DNA from: Hyphomicrobiales bacterium
Lineage (GTDB): Bacteria > Pseudomonadota > Alphaproteobacteria > Rhizobiales > Aestuariivirgaceae
Length of the DNA: 35,970 nt
NCBI GenBank assembly: GCA_012032065.1
Contig: JAAURV010000002.1
Span: forward strand, 1 to 35,970
Direction: 5' to 3'
The notes beneath the pieces were generated by a model. The model saw only the letters and a program-made list of their open reading frames with translations. It was not told where the DNA came from and did no database searches. Shown piece after piece: positions 18,957 to 33,517 of this stretch. A program made the position numbers and the translations under genes. Position 1 is the first letter of the stretch. Each line of letters begins with the position of its first letter.

Positions 18957-19421
18957 ATGAATCTCACTCGGCGCAAACTCGCCTATGCCGGCGGCCTGAT
19001 GGCAGGCGCCGCGCTGATCGGCGCGACCTCGGCAGTTCCGGCGCTTGCCTGTGCCGACGACGACCTTGCCAAGGCGGTCGAGGATTTCCGCAAGGCGATG
19101 GTCGAAGCGAACGGTGCGCGGCTTCTCGAACTTTCGGCCGACGAAATGAGTTTTGGCCACGCGAACGGCGTCATTCAGACGAAAATCGAGTTCGTGAAGT
19201 CGGTGGTCGACAAGGCCGAAGTGTTCAAACGCATCGATCTCGTGAGTCACCAGAACCGCGTAGCCGGTGACATCGGCATCGCCCGTCATACCTTCGATGC
19301 AGACATCTTCTTCCAGGGCAAGGATATTTCGCTGACGCTCGGTATCGTGATGGTGTGGAAGAACGTCGACGGCCGCTTCCGTCTGTTCGCGCGCCAGTCG
19401 TTCAAGCCGATCACAGTCTAA
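18957..19421 (+). CDS. Exported NTF2/SnoaL-like (DUF4440-type) protein with twin-arginine-like signal
   Basis: MNLTRRKLAYAGGLMAGAALIGATSAVPALA leader; C-terminal VMVWKNVDGRFRLFARQSFKP typical of NTF2-like proteins. Confidence 0.7.
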   Translation: MNLTRRKLAYAGGLMAGAALIGATSAVPALACADDDLAKAVEDFRKAMVEANGARLLELSADEMSFGHANGVIQTKIEFVKSVVDKAEVFKRIDLVSHQNRVAGDIGIARHTFDADIFFQGKDISLTLGIVMVWKNVDGRFRLFARQSFKPITV

Positions 19422-19443
19422 GCGGCATCGGCAGGAATTTTCG

Positions 19444-19467
19444 CGCCCCGGAGCTTGCTCCGGGGCG
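19444..19467 (+). terminator. Rho-independent-type terminator
   Basis: CGCCCCGGAGC-TT-GCTCCGGGGCG perfect inverted repeat followed by AATTCTTTT, 23 nt after the 19421 stop. Confidence 0.75.
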
Positions 19468-19639
19468 AATTCTTTTGCGTTCAGAACATATCCAGGGCGA
19501 TAGAGCCGGCACGGCAAAGACAATCTTAAAGATTTTTGGCCATAGATACCGTGTTGGCACGGGACGATTGGCTTGCCTGCAGTCCGTTTATATTGGATTG
19601 GGGGGCGCGGCTTGGCCCAAGAACGAATGGAATGCGACA

Positions 19640-20617
19640 ATGAGCCTGAAGAGGTTTGCCGGAATTTTCGCTGCAACGGCATGCTGCCTTTCCGCAGGGG
19701 GCGCGCATGCGGGGCAAAAGTGGGACATGCCCATGGCATATCCGGCGGCCAACTTCCATTCCGTCAACGCCAAGGAGTTCGCGGCCTGCGTCAAGGAAGG
19801 CACGGGCGGCGAGATCGACATCGTCACGCACCCAGGCGGGTCGCTTTTTAAAGGCAATGACATCAAGCGCGCCGTTCAGACTGGCCAAACGCCGATCGGC
19901 GAGCGGCTGCTTTCCGCCCATGAGAACGAGAATCCGGTGTTCGGCGTCGACTCAGTGCCGTTTCTGGCGAATTCCTACGACGATTCGGTGAAGCTTTGGA
20001 ACGCCACCAAGCCCGAGCTCGAAAAGGTTTTGGACAAGCAGGGTCTTGTCCTCCTCTATTCCGTGCCGTGGCCGCCGCAGGGCTTTTACTTCAAGAGGGA
20101 CGTGAATGCGGTCGCGGACATGGGCGGCGTCAAGGTGCGCTCGTACAACAATTCGACGGCACGCATATCGGAGTTGACCGGCATGGCGCCGGTTCAGATC
20201 GAAGCAGCCGAAATAACCCAGGCGCTTGCAACGGGAGTTATCGGCGCGCTGATTACGTCAGCGGTCACCGGCCAGGACAGCAAGGCGTGGGAACAGCTCT
20301 CGCACTTCTACACGGTCGAGGCCTGGATGCCGCGCAACCACGTGATCGCCAACAAATCGACATGGTCGGCCTTGCCGGATTCCCAGAAGGCCGCCCTCAA
20401 GGACTGCGCGGCGAAGGCGGAAGCCGCGGGCGTCGAGAAGTCCAAGGCCGCGAACCAGGCAGCGCTCGAAGCGCTCGCCAAGAACAACATGAAAGTGCTG
20501 CCGCCATCGGACGCGCTTGCCGCCGAACTGAGAAAGGCTGGCGCAACCATGACAGACGAATGGGTTGCGAAGGCTGGAGACGCAGGCAAGGCTGTTGTTG
20601 ACGCGTACAAGAAATAA
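19640..20617 (+). CDS. dctP: TRAP transporter substrate-binding protein (DctP family)
   Basis: Signal peptide, then PGGSLFKGNDIKRAVQTGQTPIGERLLS and GGVKVRSYNNSTARISELTGMAPVQIEAAEITQALATGVIGALITS, characteristic of DctP. Confidence 0.9.
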   Translation: MSLKRFAGIFAATACCLSAGGAHAGQKWDMPMAYPAANFHSVNAKEFAACVKEGTGGEIDIVTHPGGSLFKGNDIKRAVQTGQTPIGERLLSAHENENPVFGVDSVPFLANSYDDSVKLWNATKPELEKVLDKQGLVLLYSVPWPPQGFYFKRDVNAVADMGGVKVRSYNNSTARISELTGMAPVQIEAAEITQALATGVIGALITSAVTGQDSKAWEQLSHFYTVEAWMPRNHVIANKSTWSALPDSQKAALKDCAAKAEAAGVEKSKAANQAALEALAKNNMKVLPPSDALAAELRKAGATMTDEWVAKAGDAGKAVVDAYKK

Positions 20618-20653
20618 GCGGGTTAGCGCCTGCGTTTGCCAAGTGACTGCCGC

Positions 20654-21216
20654 ATGTCCTCATCCGCAGTGATGCACGCGAAGCAAGCAGGCTTGAGCCG
20701 CACCTTGGGCGGCCGCATGCGCTCGTTTCTCGACACTCTCTATCTTGGTTGCGGCTATCTCGCTGCCGCCAGCATGTGCGCCATTCTCGTCATCACGATC
20801 GTGCAGATCGGCGGGAGGTTCTCGGGTCACAATTTCCGCGGCCTCTCGGATTATGCAGGTTATTTCATGGCGCCTCGGCCTTTCTCGCCTTTGCCCACAC
20901 GCTGAACAGGGGCGCTCATATCCGAATCGAACTGTTGCTCTCCAATGCCGGTAGAGGGCGCCGTGCGCTCGAGACCGCGAGCTTCGCCGCCGGGATCGCG
21001 ATCTCCACGTGGTTCGCCTACTACTGCTGCGACATGGTTTACTGGTCGTATCAGCTGGGCGACATCAGCACGGGCCAGGATGCGACACCGCTGTGGATTC
21101 CGCAGTTGAGCATGGCGATTGGCGCGGTTCTCTTCGCCATTGCCATTGCCGATCACGGACTCAGGCTTTTGATATCGGGCGATCATGGCATTGAGCAATC
21201 GGCCGACGTGACCTAG
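20654..21216 (+). CDS. dctQ: TRAP transporter small permease (DctQ family), apparent one-base frameshift near 20870
   Basis: Frame A DYAGYFMA; frame B continues ASAFLAFAHTLNRGAHIRIELLLSNAG. Adding one G (GCGCC to GCGGCC) gives the DctQ-like YFMAASAFLAFAHTLNRGAHIRIE. Confidence 0.85.
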
Positions 21217-21226
21217 GAGCGGGCGG

Positions 21227-22543
21227 ATGGATTACGGATTGATGCTGGCCATCCTGCTCGGCTTCATGTTCCTGCTGCTCGCGGGTGGCGTGTGGATTGC
21301 GCTCTCGCTGCTCGCGGTGGCTGCGGTCGGCATCGAGCTGTTCGCGGGCCGGCCAGCGGGCGCATCGATCGCCACTACTATCTGGTCGTCTTCTTCCTCA
21401 TGGATGCTCACATCCTTGCCGATGTTCATCTGGATGGGAGATATCCTCTTTCATTCGAAGCTTTCGGAGGATCTCTTTCGAGGCCTCTCGCCATTGATGA
21501 GCAGGCTGCCCGGCGGGCTGCTTCATACCAATGTCATGGGCTGCACATTGTTCGGATCGGTATCGGGTTCGTCCGCCGCGACGCTGACGACTGTCGGCAA
21601 GATGACGATCCCCGAGCTCAAGAAACGCAATTACCCCGAGGATCTTGTCGTCGGAACGCTGGCGGGACCGGCTACTCTCGGACTCATGATTCCACCGTCG
21701 ATCATCATGATCGTCTATGGCGTCATGACCAATGAATCGATCGCGGCGATCAATCTGGCGGGCGTGATCCCAGGGTTGGTTCTGGCCGCCATGTTCAGCG
21801 CCTATGTGGCGGTCAAGGCGAAGTTCACGCCTGGCTTTGCTCCGGCGGTCGAGCCAAACTACACGTTTTTCGAGAAGCTCTACGCATCGCGGCGGCTGAT
21901 CCCTGTCATCTTGTTGCTCGTGCTTGTCATCGGATCGATGTTCACGGGTTATGCGACGGCAACCGAAGCGGCCGCACTTGGCGTGGCCGGCGCATTCGGG
22001 CTGGCATGGTCGCAGGGCACGCTGACGTGGCGGACTTTCATGGACGGCCTGATGAGCGCCACGCGAACTTCGGCGATGATTGCGTTTATTCTCGCGGCTT
22101 CCGCGGCCCTGACGCTGGCCATGGGATTCACCGGATTGCCAGGCATGCTGGCGGACTGGGTGGCGTCGCTCAATCTCAATGCCTACACGCTGCTGATGGC
22201 GTTGCTCGTACTTTACATCGTACTCGGATGCTTTCTGGACGGCATCTCCTGTGTTGCGCTCACCATCGCCATCATCGAGCCGATGGTGCGGGGCGCCGGG
22301 ATCGACATGATCTGGTTCGGCATCTTCGTAGTGCTCGTCGTCGAACTGGCGCAGATCACGCCGCCCGTCGGCTTCAATCTCTTCGTGCTGCAGTCGATGA
22401 CCGGGTACAATATGTTCCGCATCGCCGCCTGGTCGTTCCCGATGTTCCTGATCATGTTGATCATGGTGTTCGTGCTGATCGAGTTTCCGGGCCTTGCGAC
22501 TTGGCTTCCCCAGCAAATGTCTCCTGCGGCCCCCATCGGCTGA
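21227..22543 (+). CDS. dctM: TRAP transporter large permease (DctM family)
   Basis: GSSAATLTTVGKMTIPELKKRNYPEDLVVGTLAGPATLGLMIPPSIIMIVYG, TPPVGFNLFVLQSM. Confidence 0.93.
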   Translation: MDYGLMLAILLGFMFLLLAGGVWIALSLLAVAAVGIELFAGRPAGASIATTIWSSSSSWMLTSLPMFIWMGDILFHSKLSEDLFRGLSPLMSRLPGGLLHTNVMGCTLFGSVSGSSAATLTTVGKMTIPELKKRNYPEDLVVGTLAGPATLGLMIPPSIIMIVYGVMTNESIAAINLAGVIPGLVLAAMFSAYVAVKAKFTPGFAPAVEPNYTFFEKLYASRRLIPVILLLVLVIGSMFTGYATATEAAALGVAGAFGLAWSQGTLTWRTFMDGLMSATRTSAMIAFILAASAALTLAMGFTGLPGMLADWVASLNLNAYTLLMALLVLYIVLGCFLDGISCVALTIAIIEPMVRGAGIDMIWFGIFVVLVVELAQITPPVGFNLFVLQSMTGYNMFRIAAWSFPMFLIMLIMVFVLIEFPGLATWLPQQMSPAAPIG

Positions 22544-22683: not shown

Positions 22684-23151
22684 TTAAGCGGCCAGGCGTT
22701 TGCACTCCGGCGGGAGCGCTACAATCTCGATCCAGTAGCGGCCCACGGTGCGGACGATTTCGACAAGGCTGTCGAAGGTTACCGGTTTGCAGATGAAGGA
22801 GTTCACACCGAGATTGTAGGTGCGGACGATATCTTCCTCGGCCTTCGACGTGGTGAGGATGATGATCGGCAGACGGTGCAGATCGGCCGATTCCTTGATC
22901 TCTTTCAGAGCCGTGCGGCCATCTTTCCTCGGCATGTTGAGGTCGAGGAGAATGAAGCCGGGAAAGGGCTGATCGGCCAAGTGCTCGTAGGCGCCGCGGC
23001 GGTTAAGGTAATCCATCAACTCGACGCCGTCGGCGACGAAGTCGACCGGGTTGCCAAGCCGCGATTCGTCGAATGCGTCCTTGATCATCATGCGATCGTC
23101 CGCGTCGTCGTCCGCAACAAGAATCCTGATTGGCTGCGCCGTACGGTTCAT
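22684..23151 (-). CDS. Single-domain response regulator (Rcp1/CheY-like)
   Basis: ILVADDDADDRMMIKDAF, FILLDLNMPRKDGRTAL, IIILTTSKAEEDI; stand-alone REC of about 155 aa. Confidence 0.9.
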   Translation of the reverse strand: MNRTAQPIRILVADDDADDRMMIKDAFDESRLGNPVDFVADGVELMDYLNRRGAYEHLADQPFPGFILLDLNMPRKDGRTALKEIKESADLHRLPIIILTTSKAEEDIVRTYNLGVNSFICKPVTFDSLVEIVRTVGRYWIEIVALPPECKRLAA

Positions 23152-25256
23152 GCTGATTTCTCCTCCAATTGCCCCTGGTTAACCGGAATGGTGATTTCGA
23201 ATGTCGAGCCTTCGCCTGGCCTGCCGGTAGCGTCGATCATGCCCTGATGGCGTTCGACGATCTTGCGGCAGGTGGCGAGGCCGATGCCTGTTCCTTCGTA
23301 TTCGTTGCGGCTGTGCAGGCGCTGGAAGATCGTGAAGATCTGTTCCTTGAACTGGTTGTCGAAGCCGATGCCGTTGTCCGAAATGCGGATGACCACGGCG
23401 GGGCCAAGCGCTGCAAGTCCGTGTTTGTGCACGACTTCCGCCGTCACCTCGATCACCGGCGCCACTTCCTTTTGGCGGAACTTCAACGCGTTGCCGATTA
23501 GGTTCTGGAACAGCTGCCGCATCTGCATGGGATCGCATTCGATCTTGGGCAGCGCTCCTACTTTAACGGTGGCTTCACTTTCCTCGATACGAATCTGCAA
23601 GTCGGACAATACGCCTGAGACGACCTCGGTGAGATCGTTGCGAGAGAATGGATTTGCCGCGGTGGTGATTCGTGAATAGGACAGGAGATCGCTGATCAAG
23701 AGGCGCATGCGTTCGGCGGCACTCTGCATGCGGTTGACGAACATCCGGCCTTCCTCGGGCAGGTCGGCAGCGTATTTCCGCACCAGGCGGTCGCCGAAAG
23801 CTTCGATCTTGCGGAGCGGTTCCTGCAAGTCGTGCGAGGCGACATAGGCGAAGTCGACAAGTTCGCGGTTGGAGCGCTCGAGTTTCCGCGTGTAATCCAG
23901 CATCGTCTGGGAAGCAGTTTCGGCGTCGGTGATGTCCTGATAGGTGGCGATGGTGCCGCCGTCCGGCATCGGCTCGTTCATGACGGCAATGATGCGGCCG
24001 TCCTTGAGGCGCTGCTTGATCGTGGTGCGGGTTCTGAGCCGCTCGGGGTCGTTGCGTTCGGCGAGGGCGCGCTCGGCTTCCTCGACCGTGTAGTTGCCGA
24101 GGCTGACGCTGTATTCCATGAGCCCGCGTAGCGTGATGCCGGGCTTCACGACATCCGCCGAGAAGCCGTAGATTTCGAGATAGCGGCGGTTGACGACGAC
24201 AAGGCGCTGGTCCTTGTCGAACATGCAGAGGCCCTGGATCATGTTCTCGATGGCGCTGTCGAACTGCAGGTTCTTGGCGTGGAGCTGCTGCGAGATGCGC
24301 AGCATCTCGATTTCGCGGTGCTTGAGCTCGGTGATGTCGGAGCGCGTTCCCACGATGCCGCCGTCGTGCGTGCGCTTTTCGCTGATCAGAATCCAGCGGC
24401 CATCGGAGAGCTGAACTTCGATCGGATCGCCGGGATTGCGGTGCTTGTGCAGGCGCCAGGCGATATAGTCATCCTCGCTCATGCCGTTCAGCACGAAGGC
24501 GCCGCGGCGGACCGATGCCTTGAGGATTTCTTCCTTGGCGGCACCCGGCATGATGATGTCGGAAACCAGCGGGCTGTAGTCGACGTATTTCCTGTTGTAG
24601 AGCACCAGCCGGTCGCTGGCGTCGTAGAGCGCGAAACCGTCCGCCATGACATCGAGCGCGTGCATGAGGCGGGCGCGGGAGCGTTCCGCGATCATCTCGA
24701 ATTGGGTGTTGAGGTCGATGCCCGAGGCCGGCGCATCGACATGGCGCGCGGTCTCGACCACGGTACCATTGGTCAAGCGCCTGCGTCTTACTTCAACGAC
24801 CTGGGCGCTCGGGGAAGCGTAGCGGAACGTGTATGAGGCGCCCGGTTCGAGCGAGCGGATGATTTTGGCGACGCGGGCCTCGATGTCCTCTGCGGAAACA
24901 TTCTGGCGGCGGAAGGTAATCCGCATGAGGTCTTGAAGCGTCGTTCCAGTCGAGGCTTCCTCGAGCAGGTAGCCGCAAAGCGACCGGTAAAGATCGTTGC
25001 AGGCGAGCAGCCTCAGTTCGGAGTCAAATAGCGCCAGGCCAACATCGGCGCCGGCGAAGATGTCGTCGATGCCAATTCCATCGCGGTGCAGGACCGTGGC
25101 GGCTTCGGCCAGCGCCGGCTGGTTCTTCAAATACGCAAGTGTGCCGTTCCCGCTCATGGTTCCCATCCGATTGATTTCGGAGAATGTCATCCATGCATAA
25201 AGGAACGGTGAAAGTTGCACTTCCATTTGCGCAAATTGGGCGCTCGGTTTCGGCAT
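23148..25256 (-). CDS. PAS-domain sensor histidine kinase
   Basis: Multiple PAS-like repeats; H-box FAYVASHDLQEPLRKIEAFGDRL; HATPase DNGIGFDNQFKEQIFTIFQRLHSRNEYEGTGIGLATCRKIVERHQG. Overlaps the response regulator by 4 nt; the true start may be internal (MSGNGTLAY). Confidence 0.9.
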   Translation of the reverse strand: MPKPSAQFAQMEVQLSPFLYAWMTFSEINRMGTMSGNGTLAYLKNQPALAEAATVLHRDGIGIDDIFAGADVGLALFDSELRLLACNDLYRSLCGYLLEEASTGTTLQDLMRITFRRQNVSAEDIEARVAKIIRSLEPGASYTFRYASPSAQVVEVRRRRLTNGTVVETARHVDAPASGIDLNTQFEMIAERSRARLMHALDVMADGFALYDASDRLVLYNRKYVDYSPLVSDIIMPGAAKEEILKASVRRGAFVLNGMSEDDYIAWRLHKHRNPGDPIEVQLSDGRWILISEKRTHDGGIVGTRSDITELKHREIEMLRISQQLHAKNLQFDSAIENMIQGLCMFDKDQRLVVVNRRYLEIYGFSADVVKPGITLRGLMEYSVSLGNYTVEEAERALAERNDPERLRTRTTIKQRLKDGRIIAVMNEPMPDGGTIATYQDITDAETASQTMLDYTRKLERSNRELVDFAYVASHDLQEPLRKIEAFGDRLVRKYAADLPEEGRMFVNRMQSAAERMRLLISDLLSYSRITTAANPFSRNDLTEVVSGVLSDLQIRIEESEATVKVGALPKIECDPMQMRQLFQNLIGNALKFRQKEVAPVIEVTAEVVHKHGLAALGPAVVIRISDNGIGFDNQFKEQIFTIFQRLHSRNEYEGTGIGLATCRKIVERHQGMIDATGRPGEGSTFEITIPVNQGQLEEKSA

Positions 25257-25358: not shown

Positions 25359-26375
25359 ATGGGTAATCGTTTTTTGACGGGAGTTCTGCTCGCGTGTTCG
25401 GTCGTATGCGGCATCGCCTTCCCGCAGCTTACCGAAATCTTCGCCCTTACGCGCTGCCGAGCCTCTTCATCATGATTCTGTGCTCGCTGTTGCCCATGGC
25501 GCGGCTCGAGCTCGACGAGGTGTTCAGCCTCGAACCCGCGGCCTGGCGGATCGTGCTTTGGCAGATCTTCGTGCTGCCGACGATTATCATCGCCGCCGCG
25601 TATCTGGGCAAATTCAGCGAGTCGATCATCGCGCTGATGGCGGTGACGGCCTGCGCGGGGTCATTGTTCGCATCTCCCGTTTTGGCCGACCTGCTTGGGC
25701 TTAACCGGGGCAGGGCACTCCAGTGCATGGTGCTCTCCACCTTCATCATGCCGTTTTCCTACTTCGTGTTCCTGGACGTCATCCTGCACAGTTCGTTTTA
25801 ACTTGCATTTCGGCGAGTTCATCGGGCGCAGCGGAATCTTCCTGCTTCTGCCGACCGGCTTGTTCTTGCTCTACAGCGCCTTTGCGCCAGATATCAGCGA
25901 AGCCTTAACCAAGAAAATCGAGCATACGGCGCGCTGGATCACGGTCATCGCCCTCATCATCTTCGGCATTGGCATTCTCGGCCCGGCGGCGGAGCTCTTG
26001 CGCACGGACACGCATCGCTTCGTACTCTATCTCTTCATCGTGACGGGGCTTGGAGCAGGCATGGCATTCTTGACTGCGATCGTCATGTATCACCAAGGCA
26101 TTACCGACGCCCTGACCGCCAGCATTGTCAGCGGGTTCAGGAATGTGGGCTTGGGTTTTGTGCTGATCGGCGCGAACCAGGAAGGCGAGACGGCGGCCTA
26201 TGTCGGGATCTCGCAAATTCCGATCTTTTTCGCGCCGCTGGTCATCCATTGGCTGGTGGGCCGCAAACGGAGACGTCTCCCGACCTCGTGCCGCTGCCTG
26301 CGTGAGCTTCTCCTAATGGCACCGCTAAAGGTGCCGCTGAGTCCGCAACCTCTACTTAACAATACCGGCAATTAA
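25359..26375 (+). CDS. Bile acid:sodium symporter (BASS)-like membrane transporter with two or three apparent indels
   Basis: Pieces MGNRFLTGVLLACSVVCGIAFPQLTEIFA / YALPSLFIMILCSLL...LHSSF / NLHFGEFIGRSGIFLLL...SGFRNVGLGFVLIGANQEGETAAYVGISQIPIFFAPLVIHWLVGRK in three frames. The real stop may be TGA at 26303-26305 (GRKTETSPDLVPLPA) if a further A is missing. Confidence 0.6.
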
Positions 26376-26455
26376 CCCGGTTCCCGCGCAGCCAATTTAC
26401 CAATTCTTGTGCGGAGGGAAGCCAAGGTCGCTCCGATTGGCGGAGGAATTGGTTA

Positions 26456-27794
26456 TGTCGTCTGAGGTTATGCAGGCAGGCTGGGCGCGCCCGATGCGGC
26501 GGCGATTCTGGCCGATGCCCGTCAGGCCTTGAGGTCTCAGAGCCGCTTGGCCAAGAAAGCGGATATTGCCAAAGTGCAGAAAGCCCCGGCTGTAGCCATG
26601 CCGGCGTATGACGCCGTTCCCTCGCCCCTAGCTCCTGCCGTAGTTGCCCAACCCGTCGAGCAGGCCAAAGCCGCGCCAGGATCCGGAAGACCGGGCCGTT
26701 ACGCGCTGCTCTGCGCCGCGTTTGCAATCGCGGGCATCGCTTCGGTCTTCACCGCGAACCGGATGTTTGCCCTGGAGATGTATGACGAGAAGGGCATGGC
26801 GCCCGCCGTTGCCGCCTTCGCCGAAGGCAAGAACTACGCCGTCTTCGATCTCAATCTCAATATCCGCAAGCTCCGTGACAAGCAGATTGCGCAGATGAAA
26901 GACACGCCCGATGTCGTCATCTTCGGCGCGAGCCACTGGCAGGAAGCTCATTCGGGCCTCGTCCGCCACAAGAAAATGTACAATTCGCATATTCACCGCG
27001 ACTATTGGGAAGACCTGCTGGCTGTCCCCGAGATGTGGGTCAGGAACGGCAAGCTGCCGAAGCAGGTGATCATCAGCATCCGCGACAACCAATTCGTGCC
27101 GGTCGGTATGCGCAACGACTTCCTGTGGGAGCCGGGCATTCCATATTACAGGCAGATGGCCGAGAGGCTTGGCCTTCCGGTCCGGGACTTCTTCAAGACG
27201 CTGCCCTGGCAGAGAATGCGCGAGCGCACATCGCTGGCGATGCTCTTCAGCAATGTCACCCGCTGGTATAACGCCGAAGCAAAACCGCAGGCAACCAAGG
27301 AAACGAAACTCGACAAGCTCGATATCCTGCTGCCGGATGGCTCGATCATCTGGTCCAGGGAGCATATGGCGCTGTTCACGCGGGAACGCACGATCCAGTC
27401 GTCGAGGGAATTCGCCGATCAGAAGCGCAACAGTCCGCCGGTTGTCGATGAAGCCGGCGTGGCTCAGTTCGAGAAGCTTCTCGCTTTCTACAAGTCGAAG
27501 GGCGTCGAGGTCTATCTCGCGCATCCGCCGTTCAATCCGGATTTCTACGATAGCCTGGCGGGATCGCCTTATGCCGAGGGCCTGCGCAAGATCGAAGCCT
27601 TGACCAAGGACATCGCCTCCCGGCATGGACTGAAGATCATCGGCAGTTTCAATCCGCATGACGTCGGCTGCACGGCGGAGATGTACATCGACGCCGAGCA
27701 CGCCAACGATCAATGTCTTGGCAAGATTTTCGCGCAGTTCGAGGAGATGGACCTCAAGGGCGTGGCCTTGCGCGGAACGCAGGGAGCCAACTGA
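26456..27794 (+). CDS. Membrane-anchored SGNH-hydrolase-like protein (DltD/AlgX-like role), possible 5' frameshift near 26481
   Basis: TM segment YALLCAAFAIAGIASVFTANRMF, then VVIFGASHWQEAHS (candidate nucleophile Ser) and YIDAEHAND (DxxH-type motif). ORF track starts at TTG 26529; a better start with RBS GGAGG is ATG 26456 if one C is restored. Confidence 0.65.
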
Positions 27795-29311
27795 TGTCTT
27801 TCACGTCTTTCCAGTTCATTTTCGTTTTCCTGCCGGTCTGCTACGCGGGTTTCCTGCTCTGCCACCGTTACGGCGGCTGGACCTGGGCCACGCATTTTCT
27901 CGCAGCCGCTTCGCTTGCCTTCTACGGCATGTTCGGCTTGCCGCTGCTGCTCGTGCTGCTCGGATCGATCTCATTCAACTACGTGGCGGGCAGGGCAATC
28001 CTGGCGCAGGAGGAAAACCGCGGCGCGGCAAAGCTGATGCTCATGGGCGCCATCGGCGCTAACCTCGCGCTGCTGGGCTATCTCAAATACACCAACTTCT
28101 TCATCGACGTGCTGAACCAGCTCGGCGGCACCTCGTTCGGGCATCATCATTTGCTGCTGGCCATCGGCGTTTCGTTTTTCACCTTCATCCAGATCGGCTA
28201 TCTGATTGACGCCTACAATCGCCAGCTTTTGCCCGCATCCTTCAGCCGCTACGTGGTATTCGCCGGCTTCTTTCCATGCGTGACCGCGGGTCCGCTGGTC
28301 ATGCAGCGCGAGATCATGGAGCAGCTCCATGAGCGAAACGATCCTGCCTTCGACTCGCGCCGCCTTGCCATCGGACTCACCATGTTCGGCATGGGCCTGT
28401 TCAAGAAGGTCGTGCTGGCCGACTCAATCGCTCCGTATGCGGATGTTCTCTTCAACGGCGTTGCCGCCGGTGGCGCGGTCGATCCCGTCGGCGCTTGGCT
28501 GGGTGCTGGCTGCTACACGCTGCAGCTCTACTTCGACTTCTCCGGCTATTCCGACATGGCGATCGGCCTTGGCTACATCTTTGGCATCAAGCTCCCGCTC
28601 AACTTCGACTCGCCCTTCAAGGCGACCAACATCTCGGACTTCTGGCGCCGCTGGCACATAACCATGACGCGGTTCTTCACCAACTACATCTATTCGGGGC
28701 TTGCCATGAAAGGCATGCGTTCCGAAGCGAGCCGCAGGGGAGCGCTGCCCCGCTTCGCGCTGGTTGCCGCCATTCCCGCCATCCTCACGTTCTTCGTCGC
28801 AGGTTTGTGGCATGGCGCGGGCTGGACCTTTGCTCTCTATGGTTTGCTCCATGGCGTTGCCATTGCCGTCTACCTCGGCTGGCGCGAGTTCTCGCCGAGC
28901 CGCTTGCCGGATCCCGTCGCCTGGTTCCTGACGATGAGCGTTGTCGTGACGGGCCTCGTGATCTTCCGCGCGGCGGACCTTGCGACGGCGGGCGTCATCC
29001 TCGGAAATATGTGGGGCCTCTCGTTCCTCGGCATTGTCGACGGTTCGGTTGCCGCCGCGGGCCTCGACATCGGCCGGGCGTTGTCCTTCATCATTCTGCT
29101 TGGCGCGATCGTGCTGCTTCTGCCCAACACGCAGCAAATCCTGCATCGCGACTGGCCGAGCAGCGACACAAAGCCCGCGGCGACGGAAGCGCGCGCCGGT
29201 CTCCTGGCTTGGCGTCCAGCATTCAGCGGCGCTTTCGCAGTCGGCTTCGGTTACGCCGTGGCGCTCACGTCGATCGGCGCGGGCACTGGCTTCCTTTACT
29301 ACCAATTCTAA
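27794..29311 (+). CDS. MBOAT-family O-acyltransferase (AlgI/DltB-like)
   Basis: MSFTSFQFIFVFLPVCY start (TGATG coupling with upstream gene); NISDFWRRWHITMTRFFTNYIY and FVAGLWHGAGWTFALYGLLHG MBOAT motifs. Confidence 0.93.
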   Translation: MSFTSFQFIFVFLPVCYAGFLLCHRYGGWTWATHFLAAASLAFYGMFGLPLLLVLLGSISFNYVAGRAILAQEENRGAAKLMLMGAIGANLALLGYLKYTNFFIDVLNQLGGTSFGHHHLLLAIGVSFFTFIQIGYLIDAYNRQLLPASFSRYVVFAGFFPCVTAGPLVMQREIMEQLHERNDPAFDSRRLAIGLTMFGMGLFKKVVLADSIAPYADVLFNGVAAGGAVDPVGAWLGAGCYTLQLYFDFSGYSDMAIGLGYIFGIKLPLNFDSPFKATNISDFWRRWHITMTRFFTNYIYSGLAMKGMRSEASRRGALPRFALVAAIPAILTFFVAGLWHGAGWTFALYGLLHGVAIAVYLGWREFSPSRLPDPVAWFLTMSVVVTGLVIFRAADLATAGVILGNMWGLSFLGIVDGSVAAAGLDIGRALSFIILLGAIVLLLPNTQQILHRDWPSSDTKPAATEARAGLLAWRPAFSGAFAVGFGYAVALTSIGAGTGFLYYQF

Positions 29312-29327
29312 CGGTGAGGTGAGAAAC

Positions 29328-30539
29328 GTGAATAAGCATTCAACCGACTTCAACCAGATCGTCCTCGATCTGCCACGGCAGGTGGACACGGAAGTCGCGG
29401 GCGACATCGAAAAGGAATCGGTATTCGTGTCGCCCTGGATCGAACGGATCAAGGTCAACGAGGACCGCAGCTCGGTAAACGTCGAGCTGCGCCCTGGCGC
29501 CAACGTCGAGGAGGTCGCGGGCAAGGCACGCCGCTATCTCGATGTCATGGCGAAGCAACTCTCGGGCTTCGAGATCAAGGTGTTCATCGAGACCAAACGC
29601 AAGGACACCGGTCCGTATCAGCTCGGCGTCAACGAAGGCCTGATCGAGCGCGGCTGGATGCACGACTACGGCAAGGGCCAGGTCGCATACTCCGGCCCCG
29701 TGCTCAAGCTTGCAAGGCTGATCAACGAGCGCTCGGGCGAACTTTACGCTCAGGCCTTCGGCGCCAAGGACGGCCACTTCCCGGCGATGGTCGACGCGGA
29801 CACACTGCAGAAGTGCGGCTATTTCGATTCGCATCCCAATGCGGTGACGTTCCTCGGCAACGTGGTCGAGGACATCGACGCGCTGGAAGAATTTCGTGTC
29901 GCCAACTCTTGCTCGGAAGGCGCGATCCTCCCTCCGCATGAACACATCCATGTGGACGGCATGTGCCTCAACCCGGCGGCGTGCTTCCCGTGCTATCCGA
30001 CATTGACGGGCAAGACCTTCGCGGACGGCGCGGCCTATTCGTGGCTCGGCCGGGTGTTCCGCTACGAGTCGCGCAACATCAACGGGCTTGACCGGCTTTA
30101 CGAATTCAACGTCCGCGAACTCGTTTTCGTCGGCAGCGAGGACTACGTGCGTTCGTGCCGCGCGAAAGCTCTTCCCATCGTCGAGGACGCTCGCCAGCCT
30201 GATCGACATCGACTGCACGGTGCAGACGGCGACGATCCGTTCTTCGCCACCGTCTCCGCCGCCAAGAAATTCTGGCAGGCAGCGCAGGAAGTGAAGAACG
30301 AGATCAAGATCCCGGCGCTCTCATCGGATGGCAGCGTCAAGCAGCTCGCCTGCGGCTCGATCAATCTGCACGGAAATTTCTTCGGCAAACGTTTCGGCTT
30401 CAACGACGGAGCCGGTGAGCCGGCCCAGACCGGTTGCGTCGGCCTGGGGATCGAGCGCTGGGTGCTGGCTGCATTCACGCAACATGGTTTCGACGAACGG
30501 CGGTGGCCCGAGTCCGTTCGCGAAAAACTCTTTGGATAA
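29328..30539 (+). CDS. Class-II aaRS-like amino acid:[acyl-carrier-protein] ligase
   Basis: EEFRVANSCSEGAILPPHEHIHVDGMCLNPAACFPCYP, RVFRYESRNINGLDRLYEFNVRELVFVGS (motif 2 region), PAQTGCVGLGIERW (motif 3); no tRNA-binding N-terminal arm evident; followed directly by a carrier protein gene. Confidence 0.85.
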   Translation: MNKHSTDFNQIVLDLPRQVDTEVAGDIEKESVFVSPWIERIKVNEDRSSVNVELRPGANVEEVAGKARRYLDVMAKQLSGFEIKVFIETKRKDTGPYQLGVNEGLIERGWMHDYGKGQVAYSGPVLKLARLINERSGELYAQAFGAKDGHFPAMVDADTLQKCGYFDSHPNAVTFLGNVVEDIDALEEFRVANSCSEGAILPPHEHIHVDGMCLNPAACFPCYPTLTGKTFADGAAYSWLGRVFRYESRNINGLDRLYEFNVRELVFVGSEDYVRSCRAKALPIVEDARQPDRHRLHGADGDDPFFATVSAAKKFWQAAQEVKNEIKIPALSSDGSVKQLACGSINLHGNFFGKRFGFNDGAGEPAQTGCVGLGIERWVLAAFTQHGFDERRWPESVREKLFG

Positions 30540-30569
30540 ACAGGGCAAAAGAGGCGACAGGAGACTGAA

Positions 30570-30827
30570 ATGCAACTCTACAACATCATCGGCAAAGTTC
30601 TGGGCGTGGATCCGGCTACTCTCTCGGAGGACTCGAACGCGCAAAATACCCCCAAGTGGGACTCGCTCCGCCACATCGAAGTGGTGTTTGCGATGGAGAG
30701 CGCGTTTCACGTGCGCTTCACGATGCCGGAAATCGCGAGCCTTCGCAATCTCGGCGACATCCGGAAGCTCTTGCTCTCGAAGAACGTCAGGCTGAACGAA
30801 CCCGAAAACCAACGCCGCGTCGCCTAA
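30570..30827 (+). CDS. Small acyl/aminoacyl carrier protein
   Basis: 85 aa with KWDSLRHIEVVFAMESAFHVRFTMPEIASLRNLGDI; predicted phosphopantetheine Ser32 (codon TCG 30663-30665); RBS GACAGGAG upstream. Confidence 0.9.
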   Translation: MQLYNIIGKVLGVDPATLSEDSNAQNTPKWDSLRHIEVVFAMESAFHVRFTMPEIASLRNLGDIRKLLLSKNVRLNEPENQRRVA

Positions 30828-30876: not shown

Positions 30877-32915
30877 ATGATCGAGAGCAACACACTGCGG
30901 ATACTGGTCGTCGATGACGACGACGACGATCTTTACCTCATCAACGATGCGTTGGCTGAGGTCAAGGATACGCGCTACGCGGTCGAGGCCGTCACTTCGG
31001 CGCTCGCCGCGATGAGCAAACTCGTGGCGAACACGTACGACACGATCATCTGCGATTACCGTCTGGGCGCTGTAACCGGCGTCGACTTCATCCGCAACTT
31101 GCGGGCTGCCGGAGTGGAGACACCGGTGATCCTGCTGACGGGTCTCGCGGCGCATACGGTTGACCGCGCGGCGCTCGAAGCGGGTGCATCCGACTTCTTG
31201 CCCAAGGGCTCGCTCAGCCCCGTGGTGCTCGACCGCTCGATCCGCTACGCGATGGCGCATGCCGACAGGCAACGGTTGTTGCAGGCAGTTCTGCGCAGCA
31301 CGACGTCTGGCATCGCGGTGCTCAATGGCGAAGGGCGGATCACGCTGTGGAACCCTCGCTTCCTCGAGTTCGCGCAATCGGCCTTTGGAGAAGAGAGCGA
31401 CCGCCTCGACCAGATCGTGGCCCTCGTCCAAAACGCGGTTTCGAAGGACATCATCGCCGGCGACCGTGTTGTGGAATGGCACCGAACGGCGCTGCCGGAC
31501 GGCGATACGGTTCTGGCGCTCCATGACGTGACGGCGCGTGTCAGCGAGTTGAAAGAGCGCGAACGCGCCGAGCAGCGCATCCGCAAGATCGCCATGACCG
31601 ATGCGCTGACGGGCCTTCCCAACCGGATGGCGTTTAATGACAGGCTCGACCGGTCGATTGCGGACGCTGCTTCGAATGGCTCCCGCATCGCGGTGTTGAG
31701 CTTCGACTTCGACCGGTTCAAGGAAGTGAACGATCTCTTCGGGCACGCGGCCGGAGACGAGTTGCTGCGGTCCACGTCCGAACGACTAGGCCGCATCCTG
31801 AGCTCGCGCGAATATGTTGCGCGGCTGGGTGGAGACGAGTTCGTGATGATTCACGACTTCCCCGACAGCGAAAGTATTCAGGCGCTTTCCGACCGTCTCG
31901 TGAACGAACTCTCGCGTCCCATCGAATGGGACGGTCGCGTTGTCGAAGCGGGCGTCAGCGTCGGCATCTCATACTTCCCGGAACATGGGCAGGAGCGCGA
32001 CACGCTCCTCGCCAATGCCGATCTCGCCATGTATCGCGCCAAGTGCGATACCGGCCGCTCGGTTTGCATCTTCGATGCGAGCATGGACCAGTTCGTCCGC
32101 GAACGGCGCAAGATCGCGCTCGATCTCCGCCGCGCCATTCAGGACAACGAGCTCAGCCTCTATTTCCAGCCGCAATATGCCGCGGGCGATGGCGGGCTTG
32201 CGGGCTTCGAGGCTTTGCTCCGGTGGAAGAGCCGCACGCGCGGTTTCGTTTCGCCGGCCGATTTCATCCTGATCGCCGAGGAAAACGGCATGATCAACGA
32301 AATCGACGAGTGGGTGATCCGCCAGGCCTGCCAGATCGCGGCCAAATGGGAATCGAACGCGAAAGTCGCGGTGAACATTTCCGCGAAGGCGATCTGCCAT
32401 GCTGGCGTCACCGACACGGTGCGCAACATCATTCTCGAAACCGGTCTTTCGCCCTCGCGCCTCGAACTCGAAGTTACCGAAACCGCGCTGATCCACGATC
32501 TCAACCGCGCGCTGCACAATCTCCGCCAGATCAAGGCGCTGGGAATCTCCATCGCCATGGATGACTTCGGAACCGGCTACTCTTCGCTGTCGCTGCTCAA
32601 TTCGTTCCCCTTGACAGGATCAAGATCGACAAGTCTTTTATCCAGGCCATCGGGCAGACGGCGCGGGCCGAGACCATCTTCCGCGCAGTCGTGGGCCTTG
32701 GCACCGCATTGCAAGTGCCGGTACTGGTCGAAGGCGTCGAAACGCGCGACCAGCTTGACTTCGCCAAGGCGCAGGGCTGCAACGAGTTCCAGGGATACTA
32801 TTTTGGAAGACCGGTTCCGGAAGCGGAGACATACGCTATTGCGAGCGGCAGAGCGCAGGGGAACGGCGACCGGTTCCAAAGCGCCGCGGACGGTCTCCTC
32901 GAGGCCGTTGCCTAA
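30877..32915 (+). CDS. REC-GGDEF-EAL (diguanylate cyclase/phosphodiesterase) response regulator, apparent one-base frameshift near 32611
   Basis: REC: ILVVDDDDDDLYLIND, IICDYRLGAVTG. GGDEF: RLGGDEFVMIHDF. EAL: GFEALLRW, ELEVTETALI, MDDFGTGYSSLSLLNSFP; next frame continues DRIKIDKSFIQAIGQTARAETIFRAVVGLGTALQVPVLVEGVETRDQLDFAKAQGCNEFQGYYFGRPVP to TAA 32915. Confidence 0.9.
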
Positions 32916-33517
32916 CTGGCGAGCTTCTTCTGTGCGTTGCGGAACGAACGCCTGAGCCAGGGCACGTCGGGCGCTTCCCAGTTGGGTGCGTTCCCACACA
33001 CGAGGTCGAAGAACGCCACGGCTGTTGCCGGGCTTTCGAGCGAGTTCTCGCGGAAGGAATCCCAGAATGCCGGATCGTCGGAGAGACCGGATGCGCGCGG
33101 CTCTTCTTCGCCCATCTCTTTTAGAATGGCCGAAGCGACCGACAAGCAGAAGCTGGTGTAGGCATAACCCTCCGGCCAACGCTCCATCGACCGGCTGAGT
33201 TCCTTCTCGGCACTCCCCGTGTTCTGGCCGGTGCGCAGCGGCGACGCGGCGACGAGCTCCTTCAGCATCATGCCGGCCGCGTAAATCACGAAGTCATGGC
33301 GGTTGACGCCGGCCAAGTGCTTGGCCTTGTCGAAGGCCTGACGCCATTTCGAGAAGGCTTCGGCCAAAGCTTCGGTATCGACCAGGGGTTTTAGGCCGGT
33401 TCCATCGAACAAGAGCGTGAGGTTCCGTTCGAAGGTCCACATGATCGTGCGGAAGCGCCGCGCCTCGTGGCTGAGGTCGCCCAGGTCCGCAACTTCGTTT
33501 TTGAGTGGCGTCAACAT
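32912..33517 (-). CDS. Hypothetical protein (201 aa), family not recognised
   Basis: Continuous ORF with balanced composition (MLTPLKNEVADLGDLSHEARRFRTIMWTFERNLTLLFDGTG...), no competing plus-strand gene over most of it; stop codon overlaps the stop of the EAL gene. Confidence 0.65.
   Translation of the reverse strand: MLTPLKNEVADLGDLSHEARRFRTIMWTFERNLTLLFDGTGLKPLVDTEALAEAFSKWRQAFDKAKHLAGVNRHDFVIYAAGMMLKELVAASPLRTGQNTGSAEKELSRSMERWPEGYAYTSFCLSVASAILKEMGEEEPRASGLSDDPAFWDSFRENSLESPATAVAFFDLVCGNAPNWEAPDVPWLRRSFRNAQKKLAS

Follow-up and report, generated by a model that had tools for sequence, protein, structure and literature searches.

Could an enzyme related to aminoacyl-tRNA synthetases (aaRS) supply amino acids, by way of a carrier protein, to an acyltransferase of the MBOAT superfamily, and so to the cell envelope? 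The question is raised by a locus of a Hyphomicrobiales bacterium (contig JAAURV010000002.1; the window, i.e., the whole stretch of DNA that we analyzed, is 35,970 nucleotides long), in which genes for an SGNH protein, an MBOAT, an aaRS-like ligase and a carrier protein follow one another in this order on the + strand (26529-30827), with all four open reading frames intact. A first-pass annotation of this DNA had read the operon as a relative of the Dlt system with an aaRS-like ligase standing in for DltA, and the conserved linkage of the genes, the homology of the ligase to the amino acid:[carrier protein] (aa:CP) ligase Bll0957, a segment of the MBOAT and the DltD-like model of the SGNH protein all support it. 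From the gene content, the conservation, the motifs, the modeled fold of the SGNH protein and the differences observed in the docking element of the MBOAT, we judge it likely that the module is a Dlt-like aminoacyl-export system, with the aaRS-like ligase in the place of DltA and a DltX tail fused to the MBOAT.

The four genes are as tightly packed on one strand as had been described, and the motifs quoted for them are present (GASHWQE and IDAEH in the SGNH protein, WHGAGWTF in the MBOAT and WDSL in the carrier protein). The genes for the SGNH protein (26529..27794) and the MBOAT (27794..29311; 505 aa) overlap by 1 base; a gap of 16 bp separates the latter from the ligase gene (29328..30539; 403 aa, GTG start), and one of 30 bp precedes the carrier gene (30570..30827). 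The start at 26456 given earlier has to be abandoned: it lies out of the SGNH frame, and the ATG at 26455 starts a different reading frame, which is closed by a stop near 26530. Candidate starts of the SGNH gene are the TTG codons at 26529 and 26547 or a more internal ATG. The operon's own ligase is class II aaRS-like, and no ANL-type (DltA-like) gene occurs inside the operon. The source genome is 66% complete, in 370 contigs, and the closest relatives that bear a name are metagenome assemblies of Hyphomicrobiales.

The best argument that the carrier protein feeds the MBOAT comes from the part of the acyltransferase that would meet the donor. The protein belongs to the DltB/AlgI/PatA superfamily (PF03062, E=3.9e-20; the only match to this family in the whole, 66% complete, genome), its WHGAGWTF motif holds the catalytic His340, and a search of the PDB with the MBOAT profile returned DltB as the only match (E=9e-51). 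The stretch from His288 to His340 (28658..28810) aligns with horizontal helix HC of DltB, whose residues Met302, Val305, Ile306, Met309 and Lys312 hold DltC (PMC11035591). The spacing between these two conserved histidines is 51-52 in the window clade (15/15 MBOATs), 44-45 in all three distant ligase-linked MBOATs and 47 in DltB, whereas it is exactly 39, with a PLGG motif, in each of 22 distinct ligase-free MBOATs and in none of 18 ligase-linked ones. Because this stretch is the DltC-docking helix in DltB, the ligase-linked MBOATs diverge, in the direction of DltB, at the very element where the donor is met, and the alignments thus suggest that a charged carrier is the donor. The ligase-free MBOATs, by analogy with PatA and its kin, would use acyl-coenzyme A (acyl-CoA). 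Loss of Arg296 from the ligase-linked MBOATs was also considered as a sign of a lost CoA site and was dropped; since DltB retains the equivalent arginine ('FRDF'), segment length and PLGG, and not Arg296, are taken to separate the two sets.

At the other end of the MBOAT, the C-terminal FLYYQF (29291..29308) fits the acyl-shuttle motif FxYxxF, with Tyr502 as its tyrosine, and F500, Y502 and F505 are invariant in 17/17 aligned MBOATs. The acyl group is known to pass through an acyl-tyrosine of this motif, which lies on DltX in the Dlt system and on the MBOAT's own C-terminus in PatA, and a carrier protein is absent from MBOAT/SGNH pathways other than Dlt (PMC12148441). For this reason, the operon in the window appears to join a Dlt-type donor to a PatA-type tail. 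In the MBOAT tree, the ligase-linked proteins of the window clade form a single clade (100/100, including the MBOAT of genome G049), which lies next to ligase-free MBOATs of that order and is nested among them. To the question raised by the first-pass annotation, i.e., whether these proteins cluster with dedicated polysaccharide O-acetylases, the answer is that they form a clade of their own, though a nested one, which differs from its CoA-type relatives at the DltB docking helix.

By its sequence, the ligase is homologous to the aa:CP ligase Bll0957. Among solved structures its best relative is Bll0957 itself (3mey, E=6e-29), an amino acid--[acyl-carrier-protein] ligase that scores better than archaeal type-2 seryl-tRNA synthetase (SerRS; 3w3s, E=4e-24), whose similarity is to the catalytic core; the profile NF005479 for amino acid:carrier ligases is a further match (E=1.3e-39). 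Residues C219, E264 and C370 align with C131, E176 and C279 of Bll0957, which we take to be zinc ligands, and stay unchanged across 20 sequences, and so do the class II residues R245 and E247 of motif 2 and G372, G374, E376 and R377 of motif 3. The segment DPFFATVSAAKKFWQAAQEVKNEI, near-invariant in 13 relatives, is the counterpart of the sole stretch that sets 3mey apart from 4h2w within the alignment examined, presumably the engineered carrier-recognition helix of Bll0957. Ahead of the core lies an extra N-terminal region of about 105 aa. The copy in the window departs from those of relatives by two compensating indels at residues ~284-300 (30165-30250), where it reads ARQPDRHRLHGADG vs LASxxDIDCxVQTAT; these may be an assembly error or a true local change of frame, and they leave the catalytic residues unaffected. 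The adjacent carrier protein exceeds the gathering cut-off of PF00550, is kept in relatives and has its phosphopantetheine site at Ser32 in WDSL.

The SGNH protein has one transmembrane helix (residues 55-80) followed by a periplasmic SGNH domain, and its catalytic Ser135 (in GASHWQE) and Asp388/His391 (in IDAEH) are invariant among its relatives. The single sequence had no Pfam match, and profile searches of Pfam and the PDB with the alignment returned nothing significant, the Pfam DltD family reaching E=0.026 in relatives. Its AlphaFold (AF2) model (predicted local distance difference test, pLDDT, 81) nonetheless places it as a DltD-like protein: the top three Foldseek matches are all DltD (E from 4e-4 to 1e-3; best 6o93, E=3.9e-4), a likeness that we count as distant because the TM-scores are 0.33-0.37.

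If these proteins act together, their genes should have stayed together, and the first-pass annotation had pointed to related genomes as the place to look. The linkage is conserved there, across orders and in a second gene order besides. All 12 ligase-bearing loci found in GTDB genomes (ligase identity 69-78%) have the genes for SGNH protein, MBOAT, ligase and carrier in the same order, and, among 397 genomes sampled from the order, the ligase clade occurs in eight and the MBOAT clade in nine, with both in eight and the ligase clade nowhere else (Fisher p=6e-16, relatedness ignored). The linkage is not due to chance.

Several observations weigh against a Dlt-like system. The argument from helix HC is comparative, and the docking residues are not identical to those of DltB. 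The profile searches of the four proteins that had been proposed earlier recovered the MBOAT (PF03062) and the carrier protein (PF00550), but the ligase falls under the curated threshold of NF005479 (136 bits vs 357); the MBOAT, for its part, scores 178 bits vs a cut-off of 375 for the DltB equivalog TIGR04091. As a means of telling ligase-linked from ligase-free MBOATs this last score fails, the ligase-free proteins reaching 144-179 bits. The structure model of the ligase is poor (pLDDT 58) and was set aside as unusable.

Three genomes depart from the usual gene content, and these departures count on the same side. G049 (loci L149 and L168:13340-15544) has a permease-SGNH fusion, an MBOAT and a carrier gene beside that of the MBOAT, but no ligase. 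It does encode, three regulatory genes away from the operon, a free-standing adenylation domain of the nonribosomal peptide synthetase (NRPS) type that has no carrier domain (TIGR01733, 425 bits, over the cut-off). The specificity positions of this domain, read by hand, are DVWHFSLVD, which we take to be the serine code of EntF. In this genome, a DltA-type enzyme may have replaced the aaRS-like ligase, with a hint that serine is the substrate, but the adenylation gene also adjoins an unrelated-looking cluster. The adenylation domain and the retained carrier are counted, for their part, in favor of the Dlt-like reading. In G087, the ligase gene (L104:9307-9831) has suffered an in-frame loss of its core (residues ~118-351), with carrier and MBOAT intact, and in G033 (L100) a ligase-carrier pair stands between the kinase and GGDEF-EAL genes that commonly flank the operon, and permease, SGNH protein and MBOAT are missing. 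These exceptions may mean that the modules are separable, or that certain copies are decaying.

A different explanation for the operon, which we hold to be unlikely, is that the MBOAT and SGNH protein form an ordinary polysaccharide O-acetylase of the PatAB/AlgIJ type, fed by acetyl-CoA, and that ligase and carrier belong to a separate pathway that shares the operon by chance. Such an arrangement would suit an MBOAT clade nested within the ligase-free members of its order, a fused tail with FxYxxF, as CoA-fed MBOATs typically have, and the ability of the modules to part, as in G049 and G033. However, it leaves several features unaccounted for: the donor-docking segment is unlike that of all 22 ligase-free relatives and DltB-like in length; ligase and MBOAT clade co-occur; G049 has kept the carrier gene next to that of the MBOAT despite loss of the ligase; and the association of a long segment with a ligase recurs in unrelated MBOATs.

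This recurrence is seen at two loci of the same class (L082:5502-9771 and L083:8214-12506), where the carrier gene comes first, followed by those for ligase, GNAT, MBOAT and SGNH protein, the ligases have an identity of only 25-27%, and the MBOATs end in FIYFRF. The two ligases form a branch of their own, apart from both the window clade and the Bll-type clade, and the two MBOATs fall outside the window clade, on long branches whose exact placement is unsure. Because both ligases and MBOATs lie outside the window clades, the combination has probably been assembled more than once. We are inclined to think that these loci and that of the window represent a second carrier-fed MBOAT pathway, in Gram-negative bacteria and with a tRNA-synthetase-derived ligase, which would have two or more origins, either in acyl-CoA-type MBOATs or through exchange of parts, with a long, DltB-like carrier-docking segment in each case, and which would be the physiological role of one or more branches of aa:CP ligases. 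The GNAT of L082 and L083 may modify the loaded amino acid. Ligase-carrier pairs akin to this branch also occur in further families of the phylum (L084, L088-L096), unaccompanied by an MBOAT and in some cases next to hybrid histidine kinases. A candidate third arrangement (L086, with a ligase, a DUF1574/SGNH protein and a convergent MBOAT) was demoted to weak support because its carrier gene adjoins a ketosynthase III-like gene.

It is also conceivable, though quite improbable, that ligase and carrier feed a small-molecule or NRPS-like pathway, as Bll0957-type ligases adjoining acyl-CoA dehydrogenase and DUF1839 genes seem to, and that MBOAT and SGNH protein acylate a secreted product. The Bll0957-type ligases of relatives, which form a separate clade, had no MBOAT within the stretch examined around any of those sampled. 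On plasmids we found only distant ligases (<60% identity, the best among the matches listed being ~30%), and those of Rhizobium, Shinella and Streptomyces adjoin genes for acyl-CoA dehydrogenase or DUF1839 proteins, which makes a different pathway likely for them; the viral contigs searched held no relative. These plasmid neighborhoods favor a small-molecule role, as do the GNAT genes of L082 and L083 and the ketosynthase III-like gene of L086, but the conserved neighbors of the operon studied here are a permease and signaling genes, with none for a dehydrogenase, an NRPS or product export seen among them, and the SGNH model best matches DltD, a transferase of the cell envelope. That the ligase is a SerRS-like enzyme charging tRNA or another RNA, with the carrier charged by something else, is very hard to credit: the core does match archaeal type-2 SerRS (3w3s) and an N-terminal region is kept, but the best match is an aa:CP ligase, that region measures ~105 aa vs ~195-200 aa ahead of the core in solved SerRS chains, the Bll0957-type segment that differs between 3mey and 4h2w is present and near-invariant, and a carrier gene adjoins that of the ligase in nearly all loci.

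If the module is a Dlt-like exporter, every chemical step can be proposed by analogy with the families involved. The ligase would use ATP to activate a small amino acid, proposed as Gly/Ala-like in the first-pass annotation and hinted to be serine by G049, and would attach it through a thioester to the phosphopantetheine group of the carrier protein encoded next to it. Once charged, the carrier would dock on the MBOAT at its long cytoplasmic helix HC. The MBOAT would then pass the aminoacyl group through its tunnel, via His340, onto Tyr502 of its own FxYxxF tail. Because this tail is of the fused DltX/PatA type, the group would probably move from its tyrosine to Ser135 of the periplasmic DltD-like SGNH protein, which would esterify an acceptor in the envelope, either a glycan or a lipid. 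Because the host is Gram-negative, teichoic acid, which the Dlt system decorates with D-alanine, is an unlikely acceptor; its synthesis is not known from alphaproteobacteria.

Comparison with characterized systems indicates which parts are shared. With the Gram-positive DltABCDX system, the module has in common a charging ligase, a carrier, an MBOAT with a long HC and catalytic histidine, a DltD-like SGNH protein and an FxYxxF motif; it differs in that the ligase is class II aaRS-like and not an ANL enzyme such as DltA, the motif is fused to the C-terminus of the MBOAT and not carried by a separate DltX microprotein, and there is an extra permease. The aa:CP ligases (Bll0957 of Bradyrhizobium, 3mey; NF005479) resemble that of the window in their core, presumed zinc ligands, class II motifs, putative carrier-recognition segment and adjacent carrier gene, but the latter has its N-terminal extra of ~105 aa, falls under the family cut-off and sits in an MBOAT/SGNH operon. 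PatA/PatB and AlgI-type O-acetylation systems, of the same MBOAT superfamily and including the nearest relatives, likewise combine an MBOAT bearing a C-terminal FxYxxF with an SGNH partner; however, they use acyl-CoA without a carrier protein, and the short PLGG segment of the ligase-free relatives is absent from the MBOAT of the window. AlmEFG, which modifies the lipopolysaccharide of Vibrio cholerae with glycine (PMC3783018), also aminoacylates a Gram-negative envelope from a charged carrier protein, but it relies on a DltA-like (ANL) ligase and an LPLAT-family transferase and has no MBOAT/SGNH relay. The suspicion in the first-pass annotation that the combination had not been characterized holds for the literature that we searched: our searches of the open-licence PMC literature returned no report of an operon with an MBOAT, an aaRS and a carrier protein, although an earlier remark on gene context in the primary literature on aa:CP ligases is possible.

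The module extends to an AEC-like permease and a two-component system. A permease-like gene lies directly upstream of the SGNH gene in nearly all complete loci examined (25406..26372, + strand, in the window), and the two are fused into one protein of ~820-840 aa in L011, L012, L103, L104 and L105; in L081 the permease gene is on the opposite strand, and in L101 none was found near the SGNH gene. The permease profile weakly matches PF03547 (Mem_trans; E=5e-4, 6/12 members) and has no match of note in the PDB. The fusions suggest that the permease is a component of the transfer complex, and it probably sits in a complex in the membrane. Among the recurrent neighbors are a GGDEF-EAL regulator and a pair made up of a PAS histidine kinase and a response regulator; even L081, which comes from another order, has the kinase and the small regulator. 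In the window, the kinase gene (23148..25256, - strand; identified by Pfam and a neighbor also in L002, L081 and L149) is divergent from the operon, a small open reading frame 3' of it (22684..23151, - strand) has a single-domain response regulator as its counterpart in L002, and a response regulator-GGDEF-EAL gene (30877..32955, + strand; identified by Pfam and conserved in relatives) follows the operon. The kinase and regulators probably control the module. One frameshift interrupts the permease gene near 25795-25812 and another the EAL part of the GGDEF-EAL gene near 32607; intact copies exist in relatives, and the indels and frameshifts of the window may be assembly errors. Farther upstream, the window encodes a TRAP-type transporter (19271-22543; DctM and neighbors), and related genes recur near the operon in L002, L099, L101 and L104.

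The biological role of aa:CP ligases was called unknown in a 2022 review (PMC9437257), and DltB was described in a 2023 review as the only MBOAT whose donor is not acyl-CoA (PMC10213974). If the Dlt-like reading is true, the operon gives one branch of aa:CP ligases a concrete, testable role, and DltB would no longer be the sole MBOAT without an acyl-CoA donor. The MBOATs with long and short HC segments would form a clean pair for studying the choice between CoA and carrier-protein donors. A translation enzyme would have been recruited to the building of the cell surface, and Gram-negative bacteria would gain a Dlt-like system for modifying its charge.

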